Source of the DNA: Bacteroidales bacterium
Lineage (GTDB): Bacteria > Bacteroidota > Bacteroidia > Bacteroidales > UBA932
Assembly (NCBI GenBank): GCA_015060245.1
Contig: SUYU01000008.1
Span: 62,001-126,000, forward strand
Reading direction: 5' to 3'
DNA: 64,000 bases
The notes beneath the pieces are model-generated. The model was not told the DNA's origin and made no database searches. It saw only the letters and a list, made by a program, of their open reading frames with translations. The position numbers and the translations under genes were made by a program. Positions 1-11,599 of the stretch are shown in pieces (the first letter of the stretch is position 1; each line of letters opens with the position of its first letter).

Positions 1-2
1 TC

Positions 3-767
3 ACAAATAATGGTAATAAAACCGAGTATTTGGATGGTGTATGTTTTGCTCAATTGCATCCTGCAACTATATCAGGTTCATCAACTTTGCCTATTTGGCC
101 TGATGAGATTGGTGTTGACAACTATGTTTTTGGTCATGTTGTTTGGCAGTTCCCTGGTAATGGTAAAGATTATCCGTTAGAGCCGGGAGAGTCTGTTGTA
201 GTAGTACAGGAGGCAAGGGACCATAGAGAGAATAACCCAGATTCATTCGACAACTCAATGGCCAATTGGGAGTGCTGGTCTGGTAACCAGGGTAGAAATA
301 ATCCAGATGTTGCAAATATGCCTGCAATCTTTACAAGAAACTTGAACAAGATGCAATGGTTGACATCTGTATTTGGTTCAGCATTCTGTTTGTATAAACC
401 AGATGATGGAACAGTCGTAGACGCTGCTTATTATGAGAAAGATGAGAATCTTCAGACTGAGGTTAATAAGACAACCCGCTATGCAAAAATTCCTGCTTCA
501 TGGGTTTACGATGGTGTTGAACTTCTTGCTGATATGAGTCTAATGAGCAAGAAACGTATCCCAGGTTTTGTAGATGCTGGTGGTACTTCTGTTGAGCAGA
601 CATATTGTCAGAAAGTTGTTTCAAGAAAAGTTGTTGGCAAGAGAGCAGACGGTACTCCAATTTTCGCTGATACCAATAACTCTACTGAGGACTTTGAGGT
701 TATACTTTACCCTCAGATCAGAAGACATGGTACCAAAGCCCCTGCATGGGATGGTACCAATAAATAA
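3..767 (+). CDS. DUF4876-family surface protein, C-terminal part
   Basis: The reading frame is open from the left edge and ends at TAA, so the true start lies outside the window; the first in-frame initiator here (TTG at 30) is not credible. The visible part runs through a LDGVCFAQL stretch, a VWQFPGNGKDYPLEPGES segment and a SVVVVQEARDH segment, which resemble the DUF4876 family found in Bacteroidales surface loci. No catalytic motif is visible. It lies 33 bases upstream of a DUF6850 beta-barrel, and the two families are often neighbours in TonB-receptor loci, so a role as an exported partner of an outer-membrane complex is inferred. The family assignment is by recall of the pattern and the function is unknown. 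Confidence 0.7.
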   Translation, partial: TNNGNKTEYLDGVCFAQLHPATISGSSTLPIWPDEIGVDNYVFGHVVWQFPGNGKDYPLEPGESVVVVQEARDHRENNPDSFDNSMANWECWSGNQGRNNPDVANMPAIFTRNLNKMQWLTSVFGSAFCLYKPDDGTVVDAAYYEKDENLQTEVNKTTRYAKIPASWVYDGVELLADMSLMSKKRIPGFVDAGGTSVEQTYCQKVVSRKVVGKRADGTPIFADTNNSTEDFEVILYPQIRRHGTKAPAWDGTNK

Positions 768-800: not shown

Positions 801-2405
801 ATGATAAAAAATATATTTAAGGCTATAGGCTGCTTATCCTTGGTGGTAACTGCCTTTAATCCAGTTCTTGCTCAGGAGAATCAGACTCCTGCTTCAGTTG
901 AAAAATTGAAGATGCAGAATATTTGGATGAACAATACAACAAATGCTGCAGCAGGTGTTGTTGATGCTTCAAAAGTCTACAGCATTTCATCTTTGGGTTA
1001 TCAGATGGATAAAGGTGACTTTTCAATGACTCAGGCTGGAAAAGACAATAATCAATTCCAGTTGAAGACTGAGGGTGGTGGAGTATATGAGAAGTTGTCA
1101 AATATGTTTATGTATGGCGAGTTGTCATATACCCGTGATGTTATCAAGGAGTCGAGATTCAATCTTTTGGAGTATGATCCATTCAGAGATATTCCGTTCC
1201 TTTTGGCTGATACAAACACTTCTAAATGGATTAGACAGCAATATGATCTTAGCATGAAGATTGCAACTCCACAGTTGTTCAATTTCCTTACTTTGGGTGT
1301 TACTGGTAACTATATGACAGGTTTGTCTGCAAAACAGGATGATCCTAAAACTCAGAAAGATGTTTCAAGATTTGGTATCGGCGGTTCAATTTTAATGAGT
1401 TTTGGCAAACACCATATTGGTATGGAGTTCAACCATCAGAACAGACGTGAAGATGGTTATACAATGATTTCTAACTCCAGATTCACTTCAAGAGCATGGG
1501 ATTATGTAGCACCTGGTTTCTTTAGAGAGGCTGAGATGGGTTCGTTCAGTTCATTGGTAACTTCACGTTATAACCATTCTCATTTGATGAATGGTGCTCT
1601 TCAATATGGTTTCAAGAATGATCATTGGAACTTCTTGTTGGAGGGTAAATACCAACATCTTGTTGAAGATATTAATAATGAGAGTTTGGATTCTAGCCCA
1701 TATACCGGAAGAAAGATGATAGGTACTGTAGTTCAAGATACCTGGAGCGGTAAAGTTGTTCTAAACTATACTTTCAACAATGGTAATATGTTGGCTTTGA
1801 ATGCTTCTTATGCCGACAAACATGTAGATGGCATTGAGTATTTCCAGGAATATAACTCAGAATATGAGGTGCAGGCTTGGGAAGTTAAAGCCAAATATAT
1901 CCGTTCTACAATTGACAGAGTTCATACAGATGTAAAACTTGACTATATTGTAAATGACGGTAATGTTTACAAATGGTGGTTTGGTGTTAACTTTGCAAAC
2001 AGAACTTATGACTGGGCTTATATATTGCCTTCAGCAGGTCAAAATGTTGCCAACAGCATCTTTGGTGTACATGCATCACGTCATATCCAATTCAATGACA
2101 AAAATTCACTTACTGTAAAACTTAATGGTGCATACTCAAGCAACGGTGAGGCATCAAGTACTTATGAAGCACCTGGTACACAACCTAATAATGTTGGTTG
2201 GACTGAGTTTACTTTGAAAGACTTCAACTACTTGACTACAAATTACGTTAAGTTTGGCGGTGAGTTGTCATACTCATACTCAGGATTCAAGAGAAATGAT
2301 TCATTGTCTTTGTTCTTTACAGTTGCTTTGGATCACTATTCACCAGATTCTGACGAGTTTGACAAACGTACAATCAGCAACTTCAAGATTGGTTTGGCAT
2401 TCTAA
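801..2405 (+). CDS. DUF6850-family outer-membrane beta-barrel protein
   Basis: The 534-residue product starts with a signal peptide (MIKNIFKAIGCLSLVVTAFN, cleavage probably after VLA, just before QEN). The rest alternates aromatic and polar residues in short strands (for example GKHHIGMEFNHQNRREDG and NFLLEGKYQHL) and ends with FKIGLAF, a terminal aromatic strand typical of outer-membrane barrels. This fits the DUF6850 family that follows DUF4876 genes in Bacteroidales. It probably sits in the outer membrane as part of a surface uptake or assembly locus whose TonB receptor would be left of the window. A strong terminator follows it, separating it from the protease genes. Substrate unknown. 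Confidence 0.75.
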   Translation: MIKNIFKAIGCLSLVVTAFNPVLAQENQTPASVEKLKMQNIWMNNTTNAAAGVVDASKVYSISSLGYQMDKGDFSMTQAGKDNNQFQLKTEGGGVYEKLSNMFMYGELSYTRDVIKESRFNLLEYDPFRDIPFLLADTNTSKWIRQQYDLSMKIATPQLFNFLTLGVTGNYMTGLSAKQDDPKTQKDVSRFGIGGSILMSFGKHHIGMEFNHQNRREDGYTMISNSRFTSRAWDYVAPGFFREAEMGSFSSLVTSRYNHSHLMNGALQYGFKNDHWNFLLEGKYQHLVEDINNESLDSSPYTGRKMIGTVVQDTWSGKVVLNYTFNNGNMLALNASYADKHVDGIEYFQEYNSEYEVQAWEVKAKYIRSTIDRVHTDVKLDYIVNDGNVYKWWFGVNFANRTYDWAYILPSAGQNVANSIFGVHASRHIQFNDKNSLTVKLNGAYSSNGEASSTYEAPGTQPNNVGWTEFTLKDFNYLTTNYVKFGGELSYSYSGFKRNDSLSLFFTVALDHYSPDSDEFDKRTISNFKIGLAF

Positions 2406-2445
2406 GAATTTCAACCCAGTTGTTTGAAAAAATAATGGCGGTAAG

Positions 2446-2478
2446 AGGGTGGCTAAAGTTTGTTGGCCACCCTTTTTT
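2446..2478 (+). terminator. Rho-independent terminator after the DUF6850 gene
   Basis: Arms AGGGTGGC (2446-2453) and GCCACCCT (2466-2473) form an 8-bp GC-rich stem followed by a T run to 2478. It lies 41 bases after the beta-barrel stop codon, so it probably ends the upstream surface operon and makes the protease array a separate transcription unit. Confidence 0.85.
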
Positions 2479-2519
2479 ACCCCTATCGGAGTTAATTATA
2501 AAGTGAGAATATTCCAATT

Positions 2520-2527
2520 TATAATTG
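2520..2527 (+). promoter_or_regulatory. Possible -7 box for the protease array
   Basis: TATAATTG differs at one base from the Bacteroidales consensus TAnnTTTG and lies 19 bases before the ATG at 2547, downstream of the terminator. No good -33 TTTG is visible at the expected distance, so this is tentative. Confidence 0.3.
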
Positions 2528-2546
2528 TTAAATAAATTTTAGATAA

Positions 2547-4775
2547 ATGAAGCGTAAAACTATTTTTGCATCAATCTTCTTTGCTGCTGCTGCCTTTATG
2601 GGCATTACTGCAAATGCACAGAATATTGAGAAGCCTACAATTGAGGGCAAAACCTCTTTTGCTGTAGTTGTAGACCAGACCACACTTGAAAAGTGCAGGG
2701 CTGAAATTGATGGTTATAAAGCCGTTGTAGAGAGCGAAGGTCTTCCTACATTTATTGTGTCGGGAAACTGGTGTTGCCCTGACTGTATTAAGGCAGTTCT
2801 TAAGGATCTTTATGAGAAGAATAACCTTGAGGGTGCATTCCTTATTGGTGATATTCCAATTGCCATGGTAACAAGAGCAAACCATTTGGCTACTGCATTC
2901 AAGATGGATGAGAGAGAGTATCCAATGGGTAGAGCCTCTATTCCAACTGACAGATTCTACGATGATTTCGACTTGAAATTCAAACCTATCAAGGATTCTA
3001 CCGATGGTTTGAAACATTTTTACCAGATGGATCCGGAGTCAGCACAATATATTGAGTGTGACATTTATACCGGCCGTTTGAAACCTCTTGCCGGCAATGG
3101 CGACAAATATGCCCAGATAAGCAAATATTTGAACAAGGCAATTGCTGCACATAAAGAGCACAACCATTTTGACCAGTTTGTTTCATATACAGGTTATGGT
3201 TCATACTCTGAGTGTTTGAAGGCTTGGAGAGCAGAGCAGCAGATTTTGCATGAGCAGTTCCCTGGCGTATTTACAAAATACAATACAGCAAAATTCATCC
3301 GCTTCTCAATGGATCCTTATACAAAGGATTATCTGTTAAGGGAGATGAGACGTCCTGAGTTGGACTTTATGGTAATTCATGCCCACGGTCTTCCTCACAA
3401 ACAGGCGCTGTGTGAAATTCCTAACTTCTTGTCGAGAGATTTTGACCATACTCCATATATTGGTTATGAGGTAAGAGAGGGTTTGAGAAGTTCACGTAAA
3501 GGTGCTAATGAGCGTACCAAGGCCATAATTGAGAAATGGGGCTTGGATTCTACCTGGTATGCCGGTTTGAATACTCCTGAGGTACTTGCAAAAGACTCTA
3601 CAGAGAAGGCTCAGACAGAAATTCTTATTGATGATATCAATGATGTAAAACCTAATCCAAGATTTATTATCATGGATTGCTGTTTTAACGGTGACTACAG
3701 ATACGATGACTTTATTGCTGGTAAATATATCATGGCAGACGGTAAGACTGTTGCAGCATTTGCTAATAGTGTTAATGTGATTCAGGATGGTTCTACTTTT
3801 GATTTGATGGGTCTTCTTGGCCAGGGTATCAGATTGGGTAACTGGGCAAAATACAACAATATTCTTGAGTCTCATATTATTGGCGACCCTACATTCCACT
3901 ATACCGCTCCTCACGGTCATGGTCATGCTCATGGAGAGGGTGCCCATAACCACTCACATGAGATCAATGATATGATGGCCAACAATGATGTTGATTTCTG
4001 GTTGGCTCATATGAATGCAAAGAATCCTGAAGTTCAGAATGTTGCACTAATCAAACTTGTAGAGAACAACTATAAGGGTGCGCCTGCAATCCTTTTGGAG
4101 AGAGTAAAAAATTCAGATTATGCAATCGTAAGATACAATGCTTTGAAATTGCTTGAGAAACTTAACGGCCCTGAGTACCGTGAGGCTCTTAAGGTTGCTT
4201 CAAATGACGGCTTTGAGTTTACAAGACGTATTGCTGTGAACAGAATGGGCTTCTGCGGTGATGTAGAGTTCATTCCTTATTTGATCAATGCTTTTGTAGA
4301 GGATTACAATGCATTGCGTATCAAATTCAACATTGAAGAGGCTTTGAAATGTTTTGACAAGAATCTTGTTGTTGCTGAAATTGAGAAGTATTTTGCAGGA
4401 AGAGACAGATTCCTTACTGAAAGATTCAAGAAAGAACTTCTTAAGGTTGTTGAAGGCAACTCTGCTGCAAGGTCACTTGAGGATATGAAAAATCCTGAGG
4501 TAAGCGTTGAAGACAAGATCTACAGAGCAAAAGCATTGCGTAACCGTCCGTTCCACCAGAATATTGATGAGATGCTTGTTCTTGTTCAGGATGCAAATGC
4601 TGCACCTGAGTTCAGACAATATCTTGTTGAGTCTTTGGGTTGGTTCAGAAGATCATACAAATCAAATGAAATTCTTTCTGTAATGGAGAAAATGCTTGCA
4701 GAGAAACAATTTGTAACTCCAGAGATGGAGCAGGAGTTGAAACGTGCATGCGCAAAACTTAAATCAGAGAAATAA
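2547..4775 (+). CDS. Exported gingipain/caspase-like protease with HEAT repeats, paralog 1
   Basis: The 742-residue product begins with a Sec signal peptide (cleavage probably after TANA, residue 24). The N-terminal half carries the pattern of C25-like caspase-fold cysteine proteases: an FLIGDIPIAMV core strand, TDRFYDDFD, the candidate catalytic His in HAHG (His280) and the candidate nucleophile in DCCFNGD (Cys379), followed by DGKTVAAFANSVNVIQD and IIGDPTFHY. A histidine-rich linker with eight His (about residues 451-471) leads to alpha-helical HEAT-like repeats from about 480 to the end. It is the first of four tandem paralogs and the only one with the His-rich linker. No T9SS C-terminal domain is obvious. 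Protease activity is inferred from the dyad; the substrate is unknown. Confidence 0.75.
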   Translation: MKRKTIFASIFFAAAAFMGITANAQNIEKPTIEGKTSFAVVVDQTTLEKCRAEIDGYKAVVESEGLPTFIVSGNWCCPDCIKAVLKDLYEKNNLEGAFLIGDIPIAMVTRANHLATAFKMDEREYPMGRASIPTDRFYDDFDLKFKPIKDSTDGLKHFYQMDPESAQYIECDIYTGRLKPLAGNGDKYAQISKYLNKAIAAHKEHNHFDQFVSYTGYGSYSECLKAWRAEQQILHEQFPGVFTKYNTAKFIRFSMDPYTKDYLLREMRRPELDFMVIHAHGLPHKQALCEIPNFLSRDFDHTPYIGYEVREGLRSSRKGANERTKAIIEKWGLDSTWYAGLNTPEVLAKDSTEKAQTEILIDDINDVKPNPRFIIMDCCFNGDYRYDDFIAGKYIMADGKTVAAFANSVNVIQDGSTFDLMGLLGQGIRLGNWAKYNNILESHIIGDPTFHYTAPHGHGHAHGEGAHNHSHEINDMMANNDVDFWLAHMNAKNPEVQNVALIKLVENNYKGAPAILLERVKNSDYAIVRYNALKLLEKLNGPEYREALKVASNDGFEFTRRIAVNRMGFCGDVEFIPYLINAFVEDYNALRIKFNIEEALKCFDKNLVVAEIEKYFAGRDRFLTERFKKELLKVVEGNSAARSLEDMKNPEVSVEDKIYRAKALRNRPFHQNIDEMLVLVQDANAAPEFRQYLVESLGWFRRSYKSNEILSVMEKMLAEKQFVTPEMEQELKRACAKLKSEK

Positions 4776-4786
4776 TGGAGGTGGTT

Positions 4787-6982
4787 ATGAAAAGAATACT
4801 ATTGTTTATAGTTGCAATTGTTTGCACAGGTCAGATTTTTGCGCAGCAGGTTAAGGTTACAAAGCCTGTCACTAAATTGAACAATTCTTTTGCAATTGTT
4901 ATTGATAATGTTACTTATGAAAAGTGTGGCGATGCTGTAAGGGAGTATAGAGATGCTTTGGAGGCCGACGGTCTTGCAACCTATATCATTGCCGGTGCTT
5001 GGGAGAATCCCGATCAGGTAAAGGCCCAGATCAAGAAAGTATATGCAAAGGCAAAGAATTTTGAGGGTGTGGTATTTATTGGTGATGTTCCTTATGTAAT
5101 GGTACGTAATGCACAGCACATGACTACAGCGTTCAAAATGGATGAGAAGAAGTTCCCTATTGATGAGTCTTCTGTATGTTCAGACCGTTTCTATGATGAT
5201 TTGCACCTTGAGTTTGAGTATCTTGAAAAAGATTCTACAAACAGCAACAAATTCTGGTACAAACTTAAAGAGACATCTCCTCAACATTTGAACCCTTCAT
5301 TCTACTCTGGCCGTATTTTCTATCCTCCTATGTTGGGTGGCGACAAATATGAGGCAATCTCAAAATATTTGAGAAAAGCGGTCGAGGCTAAAAAGAATCC
5401 TGATCTTCTTGACAAGATGGTTACTTTTGCCGGACACGGTTACAATGGTGACTGTCTTTTGGTATGGCAGGATGAGAAGATTGCAATGAATGAGAACTTC
5501 CCATTCTTGGGCAAGGATCATTTGAGCGAAAAACATTTGAGTTTCAGAATGTCTCCTTATATGAAATATGAGTTGTTTGATGAGATTGAGAGACCTGACA
5601 TTGATGCATTCTTCTTCAATGAGCATGGTTCAATTGACAAACAGCACATTTCAGGTGGTCCGGAGTTTGTACACTCTCTTGAAGAGCGTTTGGCAGCATT
5701 GAGATCGCAGGTAGAAGGTGAGTTGGCCTTTGTTCCTAAAGCACAGCGCGAAGAACTTAAAAAGAAATTCTTGGCTGACTATGGTTTGAACGAGAATTTC
5801 TTTACTGCAGAGGCTAAGGATAATACTCCTGACGTCGCTGAGGCTAAAGGTGACAAGAATGTTACAATCTTCAGTTTGGATGATATCAAGAAGTTGAAAC
5901 CTACCCCAAGATTTGTAATGTTCAATGCATGCTACAACGGTTCATTCCATAGACCAGGTTATGTTTCAGGTTACTATATTTTTGGCGACGGCAGAACAGT
6001 CGTTTGTCAGGGTAATACTGTAAATGTTCTTCAAGACCGCTGGACATATGAGATGGTAGGTCTTATCTCTCATGGTGTGAGAATTGGTGAGTATAACAGA
6101 ATGATTGCCTCTTTGGAGGGCCATATCATTGGTGACCCTACTTTCCACTTCAAGGAGCAGGAGGGTAGCACTCTTAGACAAGATGCTGTTGCCAAAGCGA
6201 ATGATGCCGCTTACTGGGAGGCACTTCTTGAATCTCCATATGCTGACATCCAGTCTTTGGCTTTGAGAAGACTTACTGATATGGGAGCCATTGAGTCATT
6301 TGACATCCTTTCACACATGAAGAGATGTGAGTTCGGTTCAACCCGTATGGAGTGTATCAAATTGTTGAGCCGTTTCCGTGACGACAACTACATTGAGGCA
6401 ATCAAGACCGGTATGTATGACAGTTACGAGATTACACGTAGAAATGCAGTTGATTATGCCTGGAGGGCAGGTGATGCCAGACTTTCAGAGGCCATTATGG
6501 ATGTATTTGTAAAATATCCTGAGTCTCAGCGTGTAAACTACAACATTCAGAAAGCAATCTCATTGTATCCTGAGGCTCCTTTGAAAGAGGCTCTTCAGAA
6601 GGTTATTCCTACAATGACTGACTATAATATGGAGAAAGCGATCAAGAATGCTGAGGATATGATTGCTACACAGCAGGCTGCTAAAAACAGGGCCGCAAAG
6701 AATCTTTTCAACAAAAAGTTGCCTCTCAGTGCAAGAATTGCCGCTTCACGTGGTATGAGAAATTATACCTACCATGAGTTGATTCCTCGTGTCCTTGAAC
6801 TTGCAGCAGATAAGAGTGAGGATTTGGAGTTGAGATTGAATGTTGTTGAGATGTTGGGCTGGTTTGACAGATCAATGCACTGCAAAACTATCAGTGAGGG
6901 TTGTGCAAAGATTTTGGAGGACAAGACAATTGAGCCGGAACTTAGGGCTGAACTTATCCAGACTATCAACAGAGTAAAATAA
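4787..6982 (+). CDS. Exported gingipain/caspase-like protease with HEAT repeats, paralog 2
   Basis: An ATG at 4775 overlaps the previous stop by one base, but the start at 4787 is better: it gives a clean signal peptide (MKRILLFIVAIVCTGQIFAQ) and has GGAGG at 4777-4781, an unusually good Shine-Dalgarno for this phylum. The 731-residue protein keeps the family layout: FIGDVPYVMV, SDRFYDDLH, candidate catalytic His in NEHGS (His280), nucleophile in NACYNGSF (Cys382), then DGRTVVCQGNTVNVLQD and IIGDPTFHF, followed by HEAT-like helices with RRNAVDYAW and MLGWFDRS. Asn-Glu replaces the second-His context seen in its neighbours, which may mark a different specificity. Part of a four-gene operon-like array. 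Confidence 0.75.
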   Translation: MKRILLFIVAIVCTGQIFAQQVKVTKPVTKLNNSFAIVIDNVTYEKCGDAVREYRDALEADGLATYIIAGAWENPDQVKAQIKKVYAKAKNFEGVVFIGDVPYVMVRNAQHMTTAFKMDEKKFPIDESSVCSDRFYDDLHLEFEYLEKDSTNSNKFWYKLKETSPQHLNPSFYSGRIFYPPMLGGDKYEAISKYLRKAVEAKKNPDLLDKMVTFAGHGYNGDCLLVWQDEKIAMNENFPFLGKDHLSEKHLSFRMSPYMKYELFDEIERPDIDAFFFNEHGSIDKQHISGGPEFVHSLEERLAALRSQVEGELAFVPKAQREELKKKFLADYGLNENFFTAEAKDNTPDVAEAKGDKNVTIFSLDDIKKLKPTPRFVMFNACYNGSFHRPGYVSGYYIFGDGRTVVCQGNTVNVLQDRWTYEMVGLISHGVRIGEYNRMIASLEGHIIGDPTFHFKEQEGSTLRQDAVAKANDAAYWEALLESPYADIQSLALRRLTDMGAIESFDILSHMKRCEFGSTRMECIKLLSRFRDDNYIEAIKTGMYDSYEITRRNAVDYAWRAGDARLSEAIMDVFVKYPESQRVNYNIQKAISLYPEAPLKEALQKVIPTMTDYNMEKAIKNAEDMIATQQAAKNRAAKNLFNKKLPLSARIAASRGMRNYTYHELIPRVLELAADKSEDLELRLNVVEMLGWFDRSMHCKTISEGCAKILEDKTIEPELRAELIQTINRVK

Positions 6983-7004
6983 CTTTTGAAATCTGATATT
7001 GATA

Positions 7005-9203
7005 ATGATAAGAAAAGTTAATATTTTAGTTATTATGGCTGTGCTTTTGCCGGTGCTTGCACTGGCAAAGCCAACCATAGTGAAGCCTACAATCAAGAGT
7101 ACTACCTCTTTTGCAATCATTGTTGACAATGCCACTTACCAGGCTATCAGACCAAGTATCGAGGCATACAGAAATGCAATTGAGAAGGATGGATTGGCTA
7201 CTTACATTGTTGCCGACAACTGGACCTCTCCAGATCTTGTAAAGGCCCAACTTATGCAACTTGCAAAGGGCAAGATGCCTATTGAGGGTGCGGTTTTCTT
7301 GGGAGACATTCCTGTTGTAATGTCGCGTGATGCACAGCATATGGCTTCGGCATTCAAAGGAGACCAGGATCAGGACTGGAAAGAGTATTCTGCCGGTACT
7401 GACCGTTTCTATGATGATTTTGACCTTGAGTGGGATTTTATCAAGCAAGATGAGGATCTTCCTCATTTCTTCTACTACTCATTGAGCCACAGAGGCCCTC
7501 AAAAAGTCTCTACCGACATCTACACTGCACGTATCAGGACTACAGGTGACGACAAGTATGCAAAATATGAGAAATATCTTGCAAAAGTTGTTGCAGCGCA
7601 TGCTGAAAACAATAAACTTGATGACTTCTTCATTTTCAGAGGCAACGCATACAACTCTGAGACCAAAGAGGGCTGGGCAGGAGAGCAGATTACTCTTCGT
7701 GAGCAGATCCCTTCTCTGTTCACTTACGGCAACACCGCACGTTTCATTGATTTTGAGACCAAATATCCGATTAAACCATATCTCTTGGAGTATTTGAAAC
7801 GTCCTACTTTGGATATTGCACTTGGTCACCACCATGGTTCAGAGACAAGACAATATTTGAACGACAACCAGAATGCTGCAAAGGTTTCTGAAGCGATTGA
7901 GATGGTTAAATTGTTTTTGCGTACCAGAGTTCGCAGAGAGAAGGGTGATGTTGCTGCAGCAATGCAGAAATGGGCAGACGAGGCAGGTGTTCCTGTAAGT
8001 TGGATAGATACAACTGCTGCAACAAGAGATGCCGACAGAGCCCGTCAGAAATCTATGGATATCTATTTGGAGGATATTTATGCAAATAATCCAAATCCGA
8101 GATTCATTATGCACGATGCCTGCTACAACGGTTCATTCCATAGAGATGATTGCGTAGCAAATGCATATCTTTTCTGCGACGGCAATACAGTTGCTGCTCA
8201 TGGCAATACTTTGAACAGTATACAGGACAAGCATCCTAACGCATATTTGGGCCTTTTGGCAAGCGGCTTGCGTATTGGCCAGTGGGCACGTTATGCACAG
8301 AATTTCTTGGGGGCGCACCTTCTTGGTGACCCTACCTACAGGTTTGCCAACACTTCTACACCAGAGGTTGATATCAACGAGATTCTGGCTGTAGAGGGCA
8401 CTAACAATGAATTCTGGTTGGATATTATCAAGAACAACAAATATGCTTCAACAGGTTCTGACTGGGTTGCAATGGCTGTAAGAAAGTTGGCCGACAACAA
8501 CTATGAGAATTTTGACCAACTTGCATTGGAGGTTTATAAAACATCACCTTACGGAAGCGTAAGAATGGAGTGTCTGAAAGCACTTTATGACAAGAATGCC
8601 TCAACAAGAAACGAGATTCTTATTCTTGGTTTGAATGACAGTTATGAACTTGTCCGCCGCTTCTGTGCTGACTATATAGGTTCTTGCGGAGATTTAGAAC
8701 TTCTTCCTGCTTTGGTAAATACAGTTATCAATGACAGAATCTCCGTCAGGGTTCATTACAGGGCAGAGGACAATCTCAAGATATATCCTAAAGAATTGGC
8801 TGAGGCAGAATTGAGAAAGCAGTTTGCCCATAATCCTCATGTCATTGATGCAGACGCCCGTTTGGCTGCAATCCTTAAAGACAGGGAGTGGGTTGACAAA
8901 CGTGTAGAGGGAACGCTTGCCTCTTTGAAAGACAAGAGTGTTCCGCATGAGGAGCGTGCACATAACATATCTTCTCTAAGGAACTACAATTATCATCATA
9001 TTGTTCCTCAGATTATAGAGTTCATTGAGGATGCTTCACAACCAACCGATTTGAGAGTTGATGCAATTGAGGCTTTGGGCTGGTTCAACGCTTCATACCA
9101 GAACCCGGTGATTGCAGAGGCTTGCAAACGTATAATGAAGTCTGATGCTCCACAAGAGTTGAAGAACGAGGCAGAGAAGACATACAAACGTCTTCAAAAC
9201 TAA
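7005..9203 (+). CDS. Exported gingipain/caspase-like protease with HEAT repeats, paralog 3
   Basis: The frame opens at a TTG (6999) but the ATG at 7005 is the likely start, giving signal peptide MIRKVNILVIMAVLLPVLAL. The 732-residue product shows VFLGDIPVVMSRDAQHMASAF, TDRFYDDFD, candidate catalytic His in GHHHGS (His277) and nucleophile in DACYNGSF (Cys373), then DGNTVAAHGNTLNSIQDKH and LLGDPTYRF. HEAT-like repeats follow, including RRFCADYIG and ALGWFNAS. It is closest to paralog 4 in the catalytic blocks. It starts 22 bases after paralog 2 with no terminator between them, so co-transcription is likely. Confidence 0.75.
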   Translation: MIRKVNILVIMAVLLPVLALAKPTIVKPTIKSTTSFAIIVDNATYQAIRPSIEAYRNAIEKDGLATYIVADNWTSPDLVKAQLMQLAKGKMPIEGAVFLGDIPVVMSRDAQHMASAFKGDQDQDWKEYSAGTDRFYDDFDLEWDFIKQDEDLPHFFYYSLSHRGPQKVSTDIYTARIRTTGDDKYAKYEKYLAKVVAAHAENNKLDDFFIFRGNAYNSETKEGWAGEQITLREQIPSLFTYGNTARFIDFETKYPIKPYLLEYLKRPTLDIALGHHHGSETRQYLNDNQNAAKVSEAIEMVKLFLRTRVRREKGDVAAAMQKWADEAGVPVSWIDTTAATRDADRARQKSMDIYLEDIYANNPNPRFIMHDACYNGSFHRDDCVANAYLFCDGNTVAAHGNTLNSIQDKHPNAYLGLLASGLRIGQWARYAQNFLGAHLLGDPTYRFANTSTPEVDINEILAVEGTNNEFWLDIIKNNKYASTGSDWVAMAVRKLADNNYENFDQLALEVYKTSPYGSVRMECLKALYDKNASTRNEILILGLNDSYELVRRFCADYIGSCGDLELLPALVNTVINDRISVRVHYRAEDNLKIYPKELAEAELRKQFAHNPHVIDADARLAAILKDREWVDKRVEGTLASLKDKSVPHEERAHNISSLRNYNYHHIVPQIIEFIEDASQPTDLRVDAIEALGWFNASYQNPVIAEACKRIMKSDAPQELKNEAEKTYKRLQN

Positions 9204-9241
9204 TGTGCACTCTGTGCAACAGTATAATATTGATTTAAATT

Positions 9242-11599
9242 ATGAAAATTCTTATAAGAATTAATATTATTCTTTTAATGGTTATCCTATTGCCGGTCTT
9301 TGCACCGGCAATGGTTTCCATTGATTCAAATCCAGGTTCAAAAGCGGAGGTCTCTCCGTTGGTAATTGAGCCGTCAATAACCTCTAAAACTGCTTTTGCC
9401 ATTATCACCGACAGTTTGACCTATGCCAATGTCCGTTCAGGTATTGATGCATACAGGGCTGCTGTTGAGAGAGATGGGCTTGGAACATATATTGTTGCCG
9501 CCAACTGGGCAACTCCCGATGATGTCAAGGCTCAACTCGTTACATTGTCAAAAGGTGTTATTCCATTGGAGGGCGCTGTATTTGTAGGAGATATTCCTAT
9601 TGTGATGTCGCGTGATGCACAGCATATGGCATCTGCATTCACCGCGCGCCAAAGCGATGTGGTTACAGAGTCCACCATTGCCACAGACCGCTTTTATGAT
9701 GATTTCGATTTGAAGTGGGATTTTATCTGTCGGGATACAAACAATAAGTCACGTTTCTATTACACTTTGCGGTTTGACTCTCCCCAAACCGTAAAAACTG
9801 ATATCTATTCTGCGAGAATCCGCGCTACGGGAGAGCAAAAGTATTCCAAACTTGACAAATATTTTAAAAAGGTGGTTGCTGCCCATAATGAGAAGAATAA
9901 ATTGGATAATCTCTTTATGTTCAGGGGCACTTCCTACAATTCAGAGACTTACGATGGTTGGTCCGGCGAGCAGATTGTTATGAGGGAGCAACTTCCTCAA
10001 CTTTTTATGCCGGGTTCAACAGTCAGATTTGTAGATTTTGATACATATTATCCGGTGAAGCCTTATGTTCTTGAGTATTTGAGGCGTCCGGGACTTGATG
10101 TTGTTGTTGGGCATCACCATGGTTCAGATACGCGCCAATACCTGAATGATGACATGAAGGCACACACTGTTTCCGAGGCTATTGAACTTGTAGCCCGACA
10201 GGCACGTGCTAAAGTCTGGCGTTCAAGAGACAAGAAGGCTGCAGTAAAGAGATATGCTGCAGAGTATGGTATTCCTGAAAACTGGATTGATACCAGTGCC
10301 GCACAGCGTGCCCTTGACCAGGAGTATGCTCATGCAAAGGATATTCATATAGAGGAGATTTATGAATATAAGCCATCTGCCAGATTTGTGATGTTTGATG
10401 CCTGCGACAACGGCTCCTTCCATTTGGATGACTGTATTGCAAGTGCCTATATTTTCAGTGACGGCGGTACTGTTGTTACCCAGGGCAATTCCATTGGCAG
10501 CATTCAAGACAAACATCCCAATGCTTATATTGGATTGTTGGCTCATGGTTTGAGGGTAGGGCAGTGGTCGAGGTATGCCCAGAACTTCTTGGGGGCACAT
10601 GTCATTGGTGATCCCACATACAGGTTTGCCAACACATCTGGAATTGATAAAGATATAAACGAAACTGTTGTTCTCAACTCTTCAGACAATGATTTGTGGC
10701 TCTCTATCCTCTCTTTGCCAACATCTGACTCACATTCCGCTTTTGCAGAGGAATATGATGAAAATATCTGCGGAAGTGATCTTAAGGCTTTGGCAATAAG
10801 AATGTTGTATGAAAACAAATATTCTGGTATTGATCAACTTGCTTTTGACATTTATAAAAAATCCCCATTCGGAAACGTGAGGATGGAGTGCCTGAAAGTT
10901 CTTTATAATCTCAGATCTCCTTTGATTGTAAAGATGTTGGGCATGGCAAGGAACGATACTTATGAACTTGTAAGACGTTTTGCTACGGAGTATTCAGGCA
11001 CTTTGGGAGATCCTGAACTTTTGCCTTTACTTGTAACTACAGCATTGAATGACCGGATGTCGGCACGTATAGAATTTAATGTAGTCAACAATTTGAAATT
11101 GTATCCCAGGGAGGCAGTTGTTGCCGAACTCGACAAACAAATTGCAGAGTCTTCACATCTTCTTGCTCCCGACAAAATCAAAAATTCAATTCTTTCAGCA
11201 CGCGAATGGTCAGATGATAACCTTGCCAGGATGTTTTCACTTCTTGACTCTATGTATGTGGTAGAGAGCACTGAAGGCGGGCAGAGTGGTTTTGCAGAGG
11301 TCTTTGGCGTAACAGAAAAGGATTATGATTTTGCTTTGAGAATATTGACTCAATTAAGGAACTATAATTGCCATTTTGTTGTTCCTGATATTATTGAGTT
11401 TGTTGAAAATGGGTCAAAACCATTAGCAATAAGAGTTGCTGCACTTGAAGTGCTCGCATGGTTCAACTTGTCATACAGGAATCATGAAATTGTAGCACTA
11501 TGCAGAAGATTGCTCGATGAGTCATCTCTTCAAGTTCCTCAAAGACTCCGCGAGGAGGCGCACCGAACTCTATTGAGAATGGGTGCGTACCAAAATTAG
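9242..11599 (+). CDS. Exported gingipain/caspase-like protease with HEAT repeats, paralog 4
   Basis: The longest paralog, 785 residues, with signal peptide MKILIRINIILLMVILLPVF and extra residues after it. The catalytic blocks are GHHHGSDTRQYLND (candidate His293) and FDACDNGSF (candidate Cys388), followed by DGGTVVTQGNSIGSIQDKH and VIGDPTYRF. The usual Tyr after the nucleophile Cys is Asp here. HEAT-like repeats fill the C-terminal half; two insertions, one after the catalytic domain and one near LDSMYVVESTEGG, account for most of the extra length. It closes the array and is convergent with ybaK only 10 bases downstream. Confidence 0.75.
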   Translation: MKILIRINIILLMVILLPVFAPAMVSIDSNPGSKAEVSPLVIEPSITSKTAFAIITDSLTYANVRSGIDAYRAAVERDGLGTYIVAANWATPDDVKAQLVTLSKGVIPLEGAVFVGDIPIVMSRDAQHMASAFTARQSDVVTESTIATDRFYDDFDLKWDFICRDTNNKSRFYYTLRFDSPQTVKTDIYSARIRATGEQKYSKLDKYFKKVVAAHNEKNKLDNLFMFRGTSYNSETYDGWSGEQIVMREQLPQLFMPGSTVRFVDFDTYYPVKPYVLEYLRRPGLDVVVGHHHGSDTRQYLNDDMKAHTVSEAIELVARQARAKVWRSRDKKAAVKRYAAEYGIPENWIDTSAAQRALDQEYAHAKDIHIEEIYEYKPSARFVMFDACDNGSFHLDDCIASAYIFSDGGTVVTQGNSIGSIQDKHPNAYIGLLAHGLRVGQWSRYAQNFLGAHVIGDPTYRFANTSGIDKDINETVVLNSSDNDLWLSILSLPTSDSHSAFAEEYDENICGSDLKALAIRMLYENKYSGIDQLAFDIYKKSPFGNVRMECLKVLYNLRSPLIVKMLGMARNDTYELVRRFATEYSGTLGDPELLPLLVTTALNDRMSARIEFNVVNNLKLYPREAVVAELDKQIAESSHLLAPDKIKNSILSAREWSDDNLARMFSLLDSMYVVESTEGGQSGFAEVFGVTEKDYDFALRILTQLRNYNCHFVVPDIIEFVENGSKPLAIRVAALEVLAWFNLSYRNHEIVALCRRLLDESSLQVPQRLREEAHRTLLRMGAYQN

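Follow-up and report, generated by a model that had tools for sequence, protein, structure and literature searches.

Predicted gingipain-fold proteases with HEAT repeats at the end of a TonB receptor operon in a Bacteroidales genome

Genes of the receptor operon

The window analyzed here (G000:C30:62001-126000) is a stretch of 64,000 nucleotides from a Bacteroidales genome of 2.2 Mb that is distributed over 39 contigs and is 92% complete. Close to its start it encodes four predicted proteases, belonging to three subfamilies in the order A, B, C, C (Table 1). The original prediction of four adjacent same-strand paralogs was borne out, as the genes lie on the forward strand with gaps of at most 38 bp and their products share 30-54% pairwise identity. 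The predicted His-Gly and C-x-N-G pair was likewise found in its expected place in all four copies, and the cysteine numbers then given (379, 382, 373, and 388) agree with the start codons chosen at the time. Each protein begins with a Sec-like signal, as judged by eye. The C-terminal HEAT-like repeats also held up, since the Pfam model HEAT_2 scored 38.3 bits in the first copy (cut-off 27.7) and fell just under the cut-off in the other three (26.5, 24.9, and 27.6 bits). No Pfam peptidase model matched any of the four copies, Peptidase_C25 remaining unmatched at E<=10, and NCBIfam returned weak matches only, far under their cut-offs. A type IX secretion system (T9SS) sorting-tail model was not detected on them (NCBIfam, E<=1), and TIGR04183 had no match in the 92% complete genome, in line with the absence of a T9SS C-terminal domain noted at the outset.

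These proteases are not a free-standing secreted set: their genes are the last ones of a TonB receptor-DUF4876-DUF6850-protease operon with the order T-4-6-A-B-C-C (T, TonB receptor; 4, DUF4876; 6, DUF6850; the first three are hereafter called the cassette). The initial interpretation as exported gingipain/caspase-like proteases was thus partly supported. The DUF4876 gene begins 17 bp after the receptor gene, upstream of the window edge, and its product has a solved relative (4q1z, E 4.6e-62). Beta strands dominate the AlphaFold2 model of the DUF6850 protein (pLDDT 88.8), whose structural matches were generic outer-membrane barrels, namely TonB receptors with Foldseek and CymA, FhaC, and porins with VIA; no specific function could be read from either search. 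When the TonB receptor was compared with PDB sequences by phmmer, only ferric-enterobactin receptors matched, over the plug region alone, and FusA and YddB did not. Between the DUF6850 gene and protease A lies a terminator-like hairpin (-21.4 kcal/mol, z -3.94; 1/200 shuffles folds as well), which was absent from the output of a consensus scan. The gap at this place measures 141 bp against a median of 28 bp among 73 such gaps. A gene of the PDDEXK_2 transposase family is located directly 5' of the operon.

Table 1. Positions of the features discussed (coordinates without a prefix are those of the window; a prefix names the locus)
Feature	Position	Strand	Description
PDDEXK_2 transposase-family gene	L002:14530-15558		directly 5' of receptor operon
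TonB receptor	L002:16518-19466		upstream of window; first gene of operon
DUF4876 lipoprotein gene, 3' part	1..767	+	begins at L002:19484; 427 aa in full; PF16215 6.8e-44; lipobox-like signal
DUF6850 outer-membrane beta-barrel	801..2405	+	534 aa; PF21012 5.7e-69
Terminator-like hairpin with terminal T run	2443..2476	+	between DUF6850 gene and protease A
Protease A	2547-4775	+	742 aa; predicted gingipain-fold domain ~33-467, HEAT solenoid ~466-742; His280, Cys379
Protease B	4775-6982	+	735 aa from first ATG, 731 from next ATG; Cys386 in 735-aa numbering
Protease C, first copy	6999-9203	+	734 aa from TTG, 732 from ATG; Cys375 in 734-aa numbering
Protease C, second copy	9242-11599	+	785 aa; Cys388; 54% identity to first C copy
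A-type copy with Gly for catalytic Cys	L014:10001-11872		623 aa
Fused ORF A-B	L080:9896-14203		1435 aa
Fused ORF C-A	L089:2433-6692		1419 aa
Fused ORF C-A	L092:7814-12151		1445 aa
Cassette missing from contig C17	L062:4055-9764		between C and A copies
M16, 4Fe-4S membrane protein, S46 dipeptidyl peptidase	L122:6717-13957		consecutive after cassette; genome G303, window's family
Predicted lipoprotein-like slot protein	L167, L175, L178: ~2350-4050		after DUF6850
S9 prolyl-oligopeptidase-like gene in fetched region	L040, L050, L054, L057, L063, L064, L067, L068, L069, L071, L079, L081, L083, L087, L088		15/80 best loci

Catalytic domain, subfamilies, and gene order

His280, Gly281, Cys379, Asn381, and Gly382 were invariant in 75/75 aligned relatives, an alignment of complete ORFs with rows of less than 62% identity. 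Judged from this alignment, the conservation of the motif is not due to chance. The catalytic His was kept in 214/214 copies of the family and the Cys in 213/214, and since all three subfamilies keep the pair none of them is a general dead partner. Only the A copy of L014 lacks the Cys; it has Gly at the Cys379 position and a shorter ORF and is possibly inactive. We predict the four window proteins to be proteolytic.

A comparison of the predicted structure with the gingipain fold, suggested along with the original prediction, gave a gingipain match when Foldseek candidates were rescored with VIA-align; with plain Foldseek, HEAT and alphaRep proteins ranked first. Against PDB sequences, phmmer with the first window copy returned HEAT matches and no C25, and the catalytic profile A4 missed the gingipain chains even at E<=10. 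It is the comparison of predicted structures, not sequence search, that reveals the kinship with gingipains. Elsewhere in the family, Pfam Peptidase_C25 matched 12/75 catalytic domains at E<=0.05 (best 1.9e-7), and the window proteases are C25-like without being filed as C25. With the gingipains RgpB and Kgp (MEROPS C25, PF01364) they share the predicted fold of the catalytic domain and the conserved His and Cys, yet the set falls outside the Pfam and T9SS definitions of these enzymes: PF01364 misses all four copies, no T9SS tail was detected, a C-terminal HEAT solenoid is present, and the genes are part of a receptor operon. Four helices lie between His and Cys in the predicted model, and the distance between the two residues is ~66 residues longer than in gingipains.

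Gingipains themselves feed heme and peptide uptake, and the shared fold would suit secreted or surface-bound proteases that break down host or dietary proteins extracellularly while the receptor takes up the released peptides or heme. A lipobox-like motif, found with a simple pattern in 17/211 N-termini (several clearly spurious), and C copies such as C17_2 and C17_3 of a second array in the same genome, which look like true lipoproteins, would also fit. On the other hand, secretion by T9SS was set aside on the missing sorting tail and the missing TIGR04183, the one tail type sought genome-wide, the four window copies carry plain Sec-like signals, and the M16 peptidases that occupy the same slot in related genomes resemble PqqL, a periplasmic protein in E. 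coli (PMC6793856). We consider this extracellular reading decidedly unlikely.

Scanning of GTDB genome contigs for the same array, another check proposed at the start, recovered at least 481 relatives, from which the best 80 loci were kept. They were ranked by their similarity to the first window copy, which favored A-type loci near that copy. The TonB receptor, DUF4876, and DUF6850 were all encoded on the protease strand in 67 of these 80. The other 13 comprised loci that are short or start near a contig end (L017, L019, L022, L024, L038, L046, L053, and L060) and loci that lacked one or two cassette ORFs under the overlap filter (L028, L037, L054, L055, and L086). The commonest orders among the best 80 were T-4-6-A-B (23), C-T-4-6-A-B (19), and T-4-6-A-B-C (17).

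A FastTree tree of 214 copies, in which three fused ORFs were split at their midpoint and the copies on the genome's own contig C17 were included, separated the subfamilies. Subfamily A (82 rows, support 100) took 74/74 first-downstream copies, and subfamily C (51 rows, support 95) took 23/26 third-downstream and 21/23 upstream copies, so the upstream and third positions mostly hold the same protein in two places. The remaining 81 rows make up subfamily B, and the branch separating A plus C from them has support 100. A recent tandem expansion of all four window copies was rejected, since copies group by position across species; the exceptions are the C/C pair in the window and a C/C/C run in the C17 array. 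The fusions cross subfamily borders (A-B once, C-A twice) and showed no signal peptide at the junction; as the two C-A loci are close relatives, they represent about two events. They suggest a common compartment for A, B, and C and probable contact between them, and the three may form a physical complex.

The second array consists of five further tandem protease copies on contig C17, 3' of an S9 peptidase gene. One of these matches Pfam Peptidase_C25 (3.8e-4, 18.9 bits), and the score of its frame including neighboring matches reaches 23.2 bits against a cut-off of 23. Comparison of this array (L011) with L062 gave 88-91% identity on both flanks of a 5.7 kb stretch that is missing from C17, and that stretch holds the receptor, DUF4876, and DUF6850 genes of the cassette. 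The C17 proteases thus have no cassette of their own, through either loss or an assembly fault, and could rely on the genome's other cassette. An S9 prolyl-oligopeptidase-like gene, as found beside this array, also occurred in the fetched region of 15/80 best loci.

Contents of the slot after the cassette

Among 198 genomes of the order, DUF6850 exceeded its cut-off in 32 and DUF4876 in 34, and the protease family was found in 8 (E<=1e-20, at most five candidates scored per genome), 8/8 of which hold both DUFs. A survey of the phylum, with at most three candidates scored per genome, detected the family in 7/296 genomes, 5 of these labelled only as same phylum. We then have 28 cassettes sampled from the order. 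An ABC ATPase, a permease, and DUF4857 come next in 15, M16 in 1 (L122, from the window's family), the gingipain-fold set in 1 (L127, which entered the sample on account of its proteases), and other genes or nothing in 11. Since 15/28 carry ABC/DUF4857 genes instead, the cassette does not need a peptidase. None of the 27 cassettes besides L122 was followed by M16 or S46; 26 of these come from other families or from unrelated places, and one had been included because of its proteases. Peptidase exchange is therefore so far seen in one GTDB family.

Within that family, DUF6850 exceeded its cut-off in 84/149 genomes. Forty loci were hand-picked from coordinates with their neighbors unseen, and the co-directional run after DUF6850 was read. 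It held the gingipain-fold set in 13, M16 in 7, M16 with S46 in 2, S46 in 4, ABC/DUF4857 in 1, other genes in 8, and none in 5. M16 and/or S46 thus occurred in 13/40 cassettes and M16 in 9/40, counts that favor nearer homologues because the probes were taken from L122, a locus whose own peptidases lie in such a slot. The draw was uneven: nine loci from L122's genus (g141) give 5/13 M16/S46 cases, the remaining 8 come from 31 loci of genera g297, g301, g1, g308, and g298, and 13/40 loci belong to the window's genus (g1) and give 8/13 gingipain-fold cases, while 7/13 gingipain-fold cases are the same loci as in the best-80 set. M16/S46 matches accounted for 15/83 ORFs inside the runs and 0/210 elsewhere in the same 40 regions (Fisher p 2e-9, kinship among loci ignored). 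All M16 matches (9/9) keep H-x-x-E-H, and all S46 matches (6/6) keep GNSGSP. For comparison, the Pfam M16 profile had four matches, spread over three frames, across the window's entire genome.

The 951-aa M16 protein of L122 matched 9ldy ('Peptidase, M16 family', 3.5e-105) and PqqL (6ofs, 9.4e-61) nearly end to end in the PDB. It also matched nearly end to end the 'putative zinc protease' chains 6b03, 6b05, and 6brs, which we take to be FusC. In L122 itself, the M16 gene is followed by genes for a 4Fe-4S membrane protein and an S46 dipeptidyl peptidase, and a Fer4 gene again adjoins S46 in L171, L189, and L199.

The diversity of the slot bears on two further readings. The proteases might be maturation enzymes whose target is not imported cargo but a surface protein such as the DUF4876 lipoprotein or the receptor, as their tight genetic linkage to outer-membrane proteins would allow. 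This is very improbable in our view, given that the cassette is often found without proteases and that unrelated peptidase families in the slot of sister cassettes suit degradation better than one specific cleavage. Alternatively, the imported cargo would be small, a peptide-like metallophore or cofactor rather than a protein, and trimming by the peptidases in the periplasm would free the metal or cofactor. S46 dipeptidyl peptidases and S9 peptidases favor short peptides, many cassettes have no endopeptidase beside them, and iron regulation of a related operon (see below) would fit as well. Yet three endopeptidase-sized gingipain-fold/HEAT subunits exceed what a short peptide needs, as does an M16 protease whose named relatives of solved structure come from a family proposed to import proteins, and we regard this reading as unlikely.

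Iron regulation and the proposed import system

In B. thetaiotaomicron, BT1933-39 is up 3.5-7.4x under iron depletion and is annotated as a transposase, hypothetical proteins, a HEAT-repeat protein, DUF4876, and a TonB receptor (PMC10434189, in part). By gene counting and synteny with B. xylanisolvens L051 (T-4-6-A-B-C), BT1934-36 should be three proteases. Like the window, BT1933-39 and BT3625-33 contain TonB-dependent receptor-DUF4876 cassettes, and both are induced by iron depletion. In BT1933-39 the HEAT-repeat protein is shared as well, but the accessible part of that source neither calls it a protease nor offers a mechanism for the locus, whereas BT3625-33 carries ABC, DUF4857, and PepSY genes instead of proteases (PMC10434189). 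Likewise, P. gingivalis PG1019-22 (DUF4876, receptor, and hypothetical proteins) appears in an iron-stimulon table of the same source, and a P. gingivalis DUF4876 gene is among regulated genes near heme genes in the accessible parts of PMC10101095 and PMC10470040.

Import followed by digestion has been described for Fus and proposed for YddB/PqqL, according to parts of PMC6793856. The operon resembles these systems (FusA/FusC and YddB/PqqL) in combining a TonB-dependent receptor with proteases that are predicted to be exported. Its syntenic relative BT1933-39 is reported as iron-regulated (PMC10434189), and in sister genomes an M16 of the PqqL kind takes the same slot. The operon differs from them in using three kinds of clan CD cysteine proteases rather than one M16, and in a cassette that adds the DUF4876 lipoprotein and the DUF6850 barrel. 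The window belongs to Bacteroidota, while Proteobacteria are named for Fus and YddB/PqqL in the accessible text of PMC6793856. The protease set thus appears to work like a protease-associated import system, yet its slot holds C25-like proteins where Fus/PqqL systems have M16, and by phmmer its receptor matched only ferric-enterobactin receptors. In the literature searched, with subscription papers and preprints mostly outside its reach, we found no account of this protease set within an import system or of exchangeable peptidases next to this cassette.

The layout of receptor and predicted exported proteases, the iron link, and the occurrence of a PqqL/FusC-type M16 in this slot speak for uptake with subsequent digestion. 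With confidence a little above even, we therefore favor a protease-associated import system of Bacteroidales, in which a protein or large peptide would be imported and digested in the periplasm by the gingipain-fold/HEAT set. With the DUF4876 surface lipoprotein and the DUF6850 barrel as helpers, the TonB receptor would take the cargo, probably an iron- or heme-bearing one, through the outer membrane. Periplasmic A-B-C cysteine proteases would then cut it, and their HEAT solenoids may hold substrate or partner subunits. Several observations count against this proposal, namely the C17 array without its own cassette, the terminator-like hairpin between cassette and proteases, the restriction of the receptor's closest solved relatives to ferric-enterobactin types over the plug, and the lack of M16/S46 in 27 order-sample cassettes besides L122. 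Furthermore, according to a section heading of PMC6793856, PqqL and YddB give no support to growth in iron-limited LB, which leaves even the model system partly unsettled.

In Pectobacterium, the Fus system is described as taking up whole proteins for their iron, and the same has been proposed for related systems that have M16 proteases. Three unrelated peptidase families in one slot of a Bacteroidales family would extend this idea to gut bacteria. Import and digestion as proposed here would also assign a function to DUF4876 and DUF6850, hint at what the iron-induced B. thetaiotaomicron operon does, and show gingipain-fold proteases at work inside the cell envelope.

A bolder version, which we hold to be possible but doubtful, is a modular machine for protein piracy in Bacteroidales, with one outer-membrane cassette feeding an exchangeable periplasmic digester (M16, S46, or an A-B-C heteromer acting as a digestion chamber) and some genomes holding several side by side. 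If so, the gingipain fold would have, next to the secreted branch that serves virulence, a second one that digests imports in the periplasm. Genome G518 has two cassettes with different digesters (M16 in L163, the gingipain-fold set in L164), and in G528 (L191, L192) and G618 (L188, L189) the gingipain-fold set lies by one cassette and M16 and/or S46 by the other. Since these three genomes hold different digesters beside different cassettes, the arrangements look like parallel machines rather than replacement.

In the sampled cassettes L167, L175, and L178, the place of a protease behind DUF6850 is taken by a predicted lipoprotein-like protein, and the three have the motif W-H-(I/V)-P-(T/A)-(R/K) in common.
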